In this document: piece by piece, positions 7,462 to 11,597 of the stretch | Layout of the letters: each line of letters opens with the position of its first letter | How positions within the stretch are numbered: position 1 is the first letter of the stretch | Program-made: the position numbers and the translations under genes | Assembly: GCF_002896855.1 (NCBI RefSeq) | Contig: NZ_CP021850.1 | Location: forward strand, 1,451,665 to 1,515,664 | Direction of reading: 5' to 3' | DNA: 64,000 nt | From: Clostridium thermosuccinogenes | Lineage (GTDB): Bacteria > Bacillota > Clostridia > Acetivibrionales > DSM-5807 | Notes under the pieces: generated by a model | Databases searched by the model: none | What the model was told of the DNA's origin: nothing | The model's input: the letters and a program-made list of their open reading frames with translations, nothing else

Positions 7462-8784
7462 TTACTTCAATACTATCTCCCTTTTAAATAAGGATTCTTC
7501 AGGGAAACGCGCCTGGCAAAAGCGGTCAAAATCACGTAACAGGGGTTCATACGATACACGCGTATAACCAAGGGATTCCTTGTAGGTAATCATATCATGT
7601 ACGCTGTCCAGAGAAATATATTGTTTTGCAGATTCAATGTCACCATGGCCAAGCACCTGTGAGATTGTTGTAACCGGAATTTCGGCAACAGCCATATTTC
7701 TACCAATAGCGCGTCTGATTGCATGAAAACCCTTTCCATCAAAAGGTTTTCGGATAATTCCGGCTTTCTTTTGATAATCATTGAAAATATCAGCAATATA
7801 TACACCGTTACTCAGATTTTGGTATGGTGCTTTTGTTCGAAGGAAAACATACATAGATTCGGAATTAGGCCTGCCATGAATAATGTAATCTTTAACTGCC
7901 TCACCGACAGCATGTGTAAGTGGTAAAGTTAATACTTTTTACGTTTTCTGCTGTACAATGTGGATTTCACCAGTCTTCCAGTCGATGTCCCTAAGCTTAA
8001 GATTTACAATATCGACAGCACGCAGTCCTGTATGTATTGCTAGAATAATGATGGCAAAATCACGTTTGCCAATGTTTGTGGTTCTGTTAATCTGATTCAG
8101 TATTTTATCTAGTTCATCGTAAGTAATGTAAGGAAATATCTTTGTTTCCCGGACGATGGGTTGGGAAAAAACCTTCTCACAATCAAAGTAAAGTCTCCCG
8201 GTTTTTTGCAGATATATGTGGAAGCTCTTGATGTACCCTCTCACATTTGACAGACTTCCGTATTTTAAATGATGCGAACAGCTTATCAGAAACAGTTGTA
8301 TATCCTTGATGCTGATGTTTACAAGATCGTCATGCCCTTGTGCCTCCAAAAAAGCTAAATATTTTCGGATAGCCCAGGTGACATCTCCTTTGGTGTTTGC
8401 ATGATATGAAGTCGAGGAAAGGAATTGTTCCAGAAGCTCTTCAAAATAGTCATTTAACTTGAATTTAGAGCCTCTTAACCTACAGGTCCACTGAATCTTA
8501 CCAGTGGTGTAAAACTCACTCATGCGGTCTGCTGCCTTCAGTAGAGTACAATACCGGTCACGCTTGATTTCACCGTTTCTGAACTTCTCTTCGACCATAG
8601 AAATATAATCTGCCATAATCTCTGCGCTATATTGAGTTGCTCTGCGGCTGTGATAATATTTGCTGATGGACAAGTACAAATTATGATGGTACCTCCAGAT
8701 ACTGTGCTCTGTCAAACCGAAATTCCTTAATGCATCCATTATTTGAGGGATCATCTGATTAATATCTGTTGTTTCCATGTTCAT
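7462..8784 (-). pseudogene. Tyrosine recombinase with one in-frame stop
   Basis: Starting at ATG 8784 (AGGAGTGG upstream), the frame encodes a phage-integrase-type recombinase. An N-terminal SAM-like core-binding region is followed by a catalytic domain with the first arginine in HTGLRAVDIVNL, then FHAIRR, then LGHGD and a tyrosine in KQYISLD: the full R-H-R-H-Y set. One TAA at 7939-7941 breaks it after IVQQKT; reading resumes in the same frame with KVLTLPLTHAVGEA. The 3' end abuts IS66, whose first base completes the last sense codon. A sequencing error, a nonsense mutation or stop readthrough would all explain it. Confidence 0.85.
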
Positions 8785-8880
8785 AAATACCACTCCTAAG
8801 AAATAGAGTCAGAATTGCTATTTGCCATTCTGCCATTTCCATTATGGGTATTTCATGAACCAGATAAACACTTTTTGGAA

Positions 8881-9598: not shown

Positions 9599-9630
9599 TG
9601 TAACATTTTGAATACATTAAATATCTTATA
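9599..9630 (+). promoter_or_regulatory. Candidate ECF-type promoter before the sigma gene
   Basis: TGTAACATTTT at 9599-9609 resembles a -35 element of ECF sigma factors and is shared exactly with the leader of the divergent-strand DUF6147-like gene. A TCTTA block follows at a similar distance in both. This suggests autoregulation of the sigma factor. Confidence 0.4.
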
Positions 9631-9652: not shown

Positions 9653-10240
9653 ATGATTTTTATTTTTACGAATGATAGGGACGATGAACGCTATGAGGAC
9701 TCTATACAGGTATTGTTTGAGGAAAATTACGATAGAGCATTCAATACGGCAATAGCTATTCTTTTTAATAAAGAATTGGCTAAGGATGCAGTGCAAGAGG
9801 CATTTACTAGAGCCCTTTTAAAAATAAAAACGCTTAATGATAAAAGCAAATTCAATTCATGGATTTGCTCAATAACTAAAAATATAAGTAAAGACATGCT
9901 CCGGCAAATATGTATACAGAAAGGTAGAAACATATCGATTTATGATGAAGACGGTGATGTTAAAAATATAGTGGAGTTAAGTGATTTCAACGTTCCAGAC
10001 AAAATATGTGAAGATTTGGAGATAAGACGAGAGATAAAAGAATGCATGGGTGAACTGGACATTGACTCACAACAGATTTTAAATTTGAGGTTTTATGAGG
10101 ATCTTACTTATGAGCAAATAGCCGAACATATGAATATAAGTGTTAATACTGTAAAGGTAAAACTTCATAGGGCAAAGCATCGAATGAAAGAAAAGCTGGA
10201 AAAGCATTTTGATTCTAGGGAAGTGAGTAAAAATGTCTAA
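9653..10240 (+). CDS. ECF-type RNA polymerase sigma factor
   Basis: 195 residues with region 2 (YDRAFNTAIAILFNKELAKDAVQEAFTRA, then FNSWICSITKN for -10 recognition) and region 4 (LNLRFYEDLTYEQIAEHMNISVNTVKVKLHRAK, a helix-turn-helix for the -35). Regions 1 and 3 are absent, as in ECF sigmas. ATG at 9653 follows GAGGAG. Its end overlaps the next gene, a probable anti-sigma factor, by 8 bases, a standard pairing in Firmicutes. It should direct polymerase to a small regulon, probably including itself. Confidence 0.93.
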   Translation: MIFIFTNDRDDERYEDSIQVLFEENYDRAFNTAIAILFNKELAKDAVQEAFTRALLKIKTLNDKSKFNSWICSITKNISKDMLRQICIQKGRNISIYDEDGDVKNIVELSDFNVPDKICEDLEIRREIKECMGELDIDSQQILNLRFYEDLTYEQIAEHMNISVNTVKVKLHRAKHRMKEKLEKHFDSREVSKNV

Positions 10241-10999
10241 AGACTTCGATTCTTTTATAAAAGAGTTAGTAAAGGAAAGAATTGAGGAAATGCCGCGACC
10301 TCCAAAAGAGAAAGTGTGGGAGCAAGTAAAAAGCAGGTTAAGAAAAGAACGGAAAAAAGAAAAAAGAAAAAAGAAAAAAGGAGTGCCTTTAAACGGTTAC
10401 GCCTGGCTTTTGTTGCCTGTGTTTTAATTGCATTGTTAACAGGATTATTTGTTAACTTTCAAACTCCCGTTATGGCGTTTACTAATAGAATTATAAAAAG
10501 CATAATAGTGATAACAGAAGATACTATTAAAATCTACAAAAAGGTTAACTCTCCTACAGATGGAAAGACTCCTGACTACCTTTTCGGCAGGGATATTGAC
10601 GATCCAAGGATTGGTGAAGCACAAAAGAAAGTACATTTTAGACTGTTTATGCCGGAATATATACCGAAAGATTTCAAATTAGACAAAGTTGATGTTTTAA
10701 ATAAGTATGAGAAGAAAGAAACCGTTACTTTTTTATATGTAAATACTAACAGTGATAATAAAGATTGTTTTGAAATTACGCAGCGGAGCTTCCCGAATGG
10801 GACAAATGTAGCATTAAACATTAAGAAGGATGAAAATACAAAGATTGAAAATTTAGTCATTGATGGAATAGAATATACTTTGGTGAATCATGAAGAACAT
10901 CTTAATGGGTTATTATGGGATAGCGGTGAAATTGGGTGCGAAATCAATGGTAATATAACCAAGGATGAAATAATAAAGGTAGCAAAGTCAATGAAATAA
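10233..10999 (+). CDS. Anti-sigma factor (DUF4367 type) split by a frame change
   Basis: The gene starts at ATG 10233 inside the sigma gene. The first 48 residues form a short cytosolic region (MSKDFDSFIKELVKER...), ending in a lysine-rich tract, after which frame 0 stops at 10427. The -1 frame then continues to 10999 with a membrane helix (AFVACVLIALLTGLF) and an exported domain ending in the DUF4367 pattern. The switch occurs within four AAAAAAG repeats; one of them is read in frame as A AAA AAG, the classic -1 slippery heptamer. The full product would hold the sigma factor at the membrane. Programmed frameshifting, phase variation or simple mutation are the options. Confidence 0.75.
10353..10380 (+). 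repeat. Heptanucleotide repeat (AAAAAAG)x4 in the anti-sigma gene
   Basis: Four perfect copies of a 7-base unit. Because 7 is not a multiple of 3, gain of one unit or loss of two would join the two reading frames. The third copy (10367-10373) is also in phase as a -1 ribosomal slippage site. Confidence 0.95.
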
Positions 11000-11030: not shown

Positions 11031-11522
11031 CTAATCTACATATATGTAAGAGGATGTTGAATTTTGTGTTTCAGTTTGTGTACCATACTTGATATAGTGT
11101 ACAGCCCTTGTCCTGTAATAATTTCCATGTTGGAAGCTTGTATTGGCACCTTCAGTTACACTTTTGGAGTTATATTGAGTAAAAGGCCAGCTTTGGACGT
11201 CAATCCACTGTGAACCATCCCATATTTGAAGGTATAGAGTAAGTTTTACTTGGTCTGACAAATAATTGGCTACCGTTGAGCCTTCAAGATATAAATCGCT
11301 TCCCGTATTGTCTATAGAGCAATAGTAGTTATAAAAAAGGCCGCTTGCTCTTTGAACAGATTCATTATCACTATCTGTACTACTACCATGATTGGGATCA
11401 GAGGACTCAATACCTTCAGTTGGCTTTGGAGGACGTTTTGTTTCCTCATTTGCAAATGCTATCTGTTGGAGGGATAGGACTACTAGTACAGTAAAAACAA
11501 CCATTTTGATACACTTGTGCAT
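11031..11522 (-). CDS. Secreted DUF6147-like protein
   Basis: 163 residues from ATG 11522, which has a well-placed AAGGGGAAG; a start 13 codons upstream lacks one. A signal peptide (VVFTVLVVLSLQQIAFA) precedes an acidic, serine-rich linker and a beta-rich domain containing ASGLFYNYYCSIDNTG and LYLQIWDGSQWIDVQSW, the signature I associate with DUF6147 proteins of Clostridia. Role unknown, but exported. The TGTAACATTTT element upstream suggests it may belong to the regulon of the sigma factor encoded next door. Confidence 0.75.
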   Translation of the reverse strand: MHKCIKMVVFTVLVVLSLQQIAFANEETKRPPKPTEGIESSDPNHGSSTDSDNESVQRASGLFYNYYCSIDNTGSDLYLEGSTVANYLSDQVKLTLYLQIWDGSQWIDVQSWPFTQYNSKSVTEGANTSFQHGNYYRTRAVHYIKYGTQTETQNSTSSYIYVD

Positions 11523-11565
11523 TTTAAACTTCCCCTTTCGTGTATAAAAATATTTTTTCAATTAT

Positions 11566-11597
11566 ATTAAGACGAATTAACACTAAAAATGTTACAC
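11566..11597 (-). promoter_or_regulatory. Candidate ECF-type promoter of the DUF6147-like gene
   Basis: On the minus strand TGTAAC and CGTC are 16 bases apart, the usual layout of an ECF promoter. The -35 block TGTAACATTTT is the same as the one before the sigma gene. Confidence 0.45.

Follow-up and report, generated by a model that had tools for sequence, protein, structure and literature searches.

The anti-sigma gene of a conserved ECF sigma module in Clostridium thermosuccinogenes carries a perfect (AAAAAAG)x4 array at positions 10353-10380 on the plus strand of the window (the whole stretch of 64,000 nucleotides that was analysed), and the two parts of the gene on either side of it lie in different reading frames. 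It would seem probable that slipped-strand expansion recently enlarged a two-unit stretch to four units and so frameshifted a conserved gene. The expansion is favoured because the relatives have a continuous gene without the array and a two-unit version of the window gene matches them, because dN/dS is low in both halves with no acceleration in the window lineage, and because the array has no counterpart elsewhere in the genome and the promoters and synteny of the module are conserved. It also has a precedent in the frameshifts at the G5 repeat of mucA. Counting against this reading, an expansion in the living strain would be deduced from one assembly, and an intact downstream frame is equally expected if that frame were in regular use through switching or slippage.

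The split anti-sigma gene and its sigma module

The ECF sigma factor (195 aa; 9653-10240, +) is recognised by Pfam Sigma70_r2 and r4_2 and by NCBIfam TIGR02937 (2.3e-29). The anti-sigma gene overlaps its end. Frame 0 runs from the ATG at 10233 to the TAA at 10425-10427 on the plus strand and encodes only 64 aa, made up of a conserved N-terminal cytoplasmic segment and a K/R-rich tail, while the -1 frame is open over 10316-10999 (+) and carries a hydrophobic membrane helix (~10397-10453) followed by a DUF4367 domain (~10652-10993; Pfam PF14285, 5.3e-15). The original prediction had described four perfect units at this position, a frame 0 stop at 10427 and a helix and DUF4367 domain in the -1 frame, and all were found exactly as described; the preceding G extends the perfect period-7 run to 29 nt. 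The arrangement is that of other Clostridia ECF sigma/DUF4367 pairs, with overlapping genes, one membrane helix and DUF4367 beyond the helix, though in the window the pairing of sigma domains with a membrane DUF4367 protein exists only across the split frame. Unlike every other such pair found, the anti-sigma frame is broken here, in the window genome alone.

A candidate ECF promoter for the sigma/anti-sigma operon, TGTAACATTTT-N14-TCTTA, lies at 9599-9628 (+), and a second, TGTAACATTTT-N13-TCTTA, lies at 11568-11596 (-) in front of a convergent gene for a secreted protein (11031-11561, -). In the 4.73-Mb genome the pattern TGTAACATTTT-N13/14-TCTTA has exactly two matches, these two, and the reversed-pattern control has none. 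Similar motifs are present at the sigma-gene position in L023 and L006 by pattern and in L004 and L005 by eye, and at the convergent-gene position in L025, L005 and L006 by pattern and in L023 by eye. The convergent gene is itself syntenic in L005/L025, L006, L007 and L023, with identities of 42-68%, and it is probably the sigma factor's dedicated target. Together the motif and the synteny suggest a sigma factor that is autoregulated and has a dedicated target as its neighbour. Apart from the array, no decay is apparent in the sigma module.

Several further observations were made on the module and its surroundings. The convergent protein is conserved and secreted, holds a PPKPTEGIESSDPNHGSS segment and has a weak match to DUF6147 (0.055); wherever the retrieved DNA of a relative extends that far, the gene for this protein adjoins the sigma/anti-sigma pair, and in L023 a transposase gene, split into two ORFs, lies between the anti-sigma and convergent genes (L023:1710-3154). 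In L004 and L005 the sigma factor has just 46-47% identity to that of the window and the anti-sigma 61-68%, which is odd for a co-evolving pair; L023 alone is alike in both (~65%). At 7462-8793 (-), 0.9 kb upstream of the sigma gene and amid IS66 and IS110 elements, there is a decayed phage-integrase-type recombinase gene in two ORFs, which match PF00589 at positions 2-63 and 110-169 with the middle absent.

Relatives and the origin of the array

Five distinct lineages have an intact anti-sigma homologue (L004/L024, 68% identity; L023, 64%; L005/L025, 61%; L006, 40%; L007, 39%), and in all five the gene is a single continuous frame without the array. An alignment of homologues at this point had been proposed as a check, on the view that the split would be an error or a lone mutation if relatives carried a continuous frame without A-rich heptamers and re-sequencing showed one more base; the first half of this holds. 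In the four nearest relatives with an intact gene, the N-terminus shares 42-72% identity with the frame 0 N-terminal part. At the position of the array the relatives read RKKEKHHKLIKRL (L004), RKEGKRINAFKRL (L023) and KKKKLFKRL (L005). A hypothetical two-unit version of the window gene reads RKKEKRSAFKRL, similar in length and character, and when its KKEKRSAFKRL is aligned against KEGKRINAFKRL and KKEKHHKLIKRL of the relatives the length and type of sequence are the same. Among 58 genomes of the order none was found that is closer to the species and none from the same family, and a search of viral_contigs gave no match.

As two units are in frame (KKEKR) and the relatives have no array, a net expansion of 14 bp is placed in the window lineage. 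The comparison suggests, as the simplest history, a net gain of two units in a KKEKR-coding stretch that already held two. By this mechanism the 14 bp would have been added by slipped-strand expansion within the lysine stretch AAA AAA GAA AAA AGG, just before the membrane helix, and the four-unit gene, now out of frame, would yield a 64-aa peptide with neither membrane anchor nor outer domain.

The array is not a chance occurrence: the number expected per genome under a Markov-1 model is 3e-8. There is no second place in the same genome with even two AAAAAAG units. Among the 391 genomes of the class that were searched, three units occur in one other (G411), where they are in frame in the Lys-rich N-terminus of a protein that reads as FtsW-like from its sequence. 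Repeat statistics were drawn from a 464-kb sample, in which the anti-sigma array is the only period-7 array of at least three copies and in which longer repeats of other periods are also rare.

Both parts of the gene appear to have been under similar constraint. Compared with L023, dN is 0.187 and dS 1.07 for the N part and dN is 0.186 and dS 1.25 for the C part, giving dN/dS of ~0.15-0.17 in both halves, though these ratios are approximate as the synonymous distances are near saturation. Tajima tests gave no sign of faster change in the window lineage. In a neutral simulation of the 205 downstream codons the median number of substitutions to the first stop was 16 (0.026 per site), and by 0.10 substitutions per site 95% of runs had a stop in the downstream frame. 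The real -1 frame is stop-free and under purifying selection, and by comparison with the simulated stops it must therefore have been used for nearly the whole period since divergence from L023. Either the break in the anti-sigma gene is young or the downstream frame is still expressed at times.

Repeat number as a possible switch or a possible error

The number of units sets the frame of the anti-sigma gene: two or five would be in frame (ON) and three or four out of frame (OFF). The original prediction that one unit gained or two removed would rejoin the frames is thus correct by computed phase, and reversion of an expanded gene by either route is possible in principle. Contingency loci take this form, with a reading frame that depends on the number of units in a perfect tandem array, and it is conceivable, though unlikely, that selected phase variation switches the anti-sigma ON and OFF within a population. 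Consistent with this, the perfect array lies in a coding region and disrupts one gene, the downstream frame is wholly preserved, and the array passes the working threshold for simple repeats of a Haemophilus survey, which is three heptamer units (PMC2651432). The resemblance to hmw1A/hmw2A of H. influenzae is that perfect tandem 7-bp units determine expression or frame by their number (PMC2651432). However, the hmw arrays are long, strain-variable and mostly in promoters, the promoters holding 13-38 units and one hmw1a ORF holding 14 (PMC2651432), whereas the array here has only four copies, within a regulator gene, in one genome. Neither a long array nor a recurring class of such arrays is seen, the four units standing alone in the 464 kb, and no relative carries them. 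A leaky contingency locus, in which repeat number and the array's own -1 slippery site would jointly set the level of free ECF sigma factor, seems very unlikely.

An error of sequencing or assembly could also account for the split, if one base or one unit was miscounted in a gene that is really in frame, but we consider it rather improbable. The tract is A-rich and of low complexity, there is a single assembly and the relatives are in frame, all of which such an error would fit. Against it, the assembly is complete in a single contig, and the A-runs are merely six long in four identical units, so that a missed base would have to hide in an otherwise perfect array. Miscounting a unit in a 28-bp array would also be unlikely with reads of more than ~100 bases.

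The slippery heptamer within the array

The heptamer A AAA AAG drives programmed -1 frameshifting in E. coli dnaX and in IS elements. Copy 3 of the array (10367-10373, +) starts at the third codon position and is read as A AAA AAG in frame 0, and a -1 slip here would enter the downstream frame and give a predicted 255-aa fusion with the layout of the intact homologues; on both phase and destination the original prediction was right. The heptamer and its codon phase are those of dnaX and the IS elements, and here too the -1 product runs into a conserved domain. With the frame 0 stop only a short distance away, a normal-looking anti-sigma as the -1 product and selection acting on the downstream frame, these features are what would be expected if programmed frameshifting at copy 3 made a regulated amount of full-length anti-sigma.

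The slippery site is not independent of the repeat, however, because the period is 1 mod 3 and three copies cover each codon phase, so that an X_XXY_YYZ heptamer leading into the downstream ORF is automatic in any array of at least three units. Nor is it unusual in this genome: 297 ORFs of 200 aa or longer contain between them 42 in-frame copies of A AAA AAG. A stimulator was sought as an SD-like motif 6-17 nt upstream or a hairpin 4-10 nt downstream. None of the SD-like motifs listed in PMC4066793 occurs in the 30 nt upstream of the slip site. The best downstream hairpin in the allowed place, an 88-nt branched structure of -20.8 kcal/mol, was matched by 5/60 shuffles and is not convincing; the 100-nt fold at the slip site has z = -1.33, and no Rfam element scores above cut-off near the array. 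Conservation, which would be expected of a programmed site, is absent too, as all five distinct relatives lack both the site and the split. In two IS3-type elements of the same genome, L109 (~1320; G000:C1:3487574) and L114 (~1302; 1811983), the heptamer A_AAA_AAA lies in the orfA/orfB overlap and is preceded by GGAG, a layout that is not present at the anti-sigma gene. These sites are apparently genuine -1 frameshift signals.

The tRNA complement also weighs against slippage. In E. coli, slipping on AAG has been linked to its sole tRNA-Lys, and it was suggested that a second tRNA-Lys in Thermus may disfavour it (PMC5009743). The genome studied here has genes for a dedicated tRNA-Lys(CUU) for AAG beside tRNA-Lys(UUU). 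The proposal that ribosomal slippage acts as a regulatory device was accordingly not upheld, and we regard programmed frameshifting as highly improbable. In E. coli, heptamers without stimulators raise frameshifting by at most ~10-fold over a no-motif control, with a background of ~0.055% (PMC4066793). Leaky slipping at a fraction of a percent is possible and might matter for a membrane anti-sigma; under the expansion reading, an occasional -1 slip at copy 3 might let through a little full-length protein.

Two other routes to a product of the downstream frame were considered and rejected. The only nearby starts for a translation restart in the -1 frame are GTG 10316, TTG 10433 and ATG 10472, which have no good SD by eye, and the products of all three would be without the N-terminal segment. 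Transcriptional slippage was discounted on general grounds, the A-runs being only six long.

Possible consequences for sigma control

Among known systems the closest is mucA, an anti-sigma gene of Pseudomonas aeruginosa in which mucA22-type frameshifts occur at a simple repeat, G5 (PMC2781719). In both, slippage at a simple repeat truncates the anti-sigma protein of an ECF sigma factor, and in both the repeat is missing from related species. They differ in that it is a 7-bp unit that expands here and a single base that is lost in mucA, and in that here the break precedes the membrane helix and the array is known from the sequence of one strain. A literature search found no case in which programmed frameshifting or a heptamer repeat controls an anti-sigma gene.

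By analogy with mucA, truncation would weaken or uncouple control of the sigma factor and raise expression of the sigma factor and the secreted protein. The 64-aa product might be unstable and leave sigma free, which we prefer on the same analogy; alternatively, it might still bind sigma but be deaf to the signal. From its conservation and position, the N-terminal segment is expected to bind sigma, and since the 64-aa product keeps it, the original suggestion that the split sets the level of free sigma factor is unproven.

A slippery heptamer within an A-rich repeat is in itself no evidence for programmed frameshifting. If the array varies in the population, an ECF sigma regulon with one clear target, the conserved secreted protein, would be switched by the repeat number of its anti-sigma gene. 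Should the expansion be no more than one mutation, it still identifies a mutable site, comparable to that of mucA, where an anti-sigma gene encodes a Lys-rich juxtamembrane stretch.
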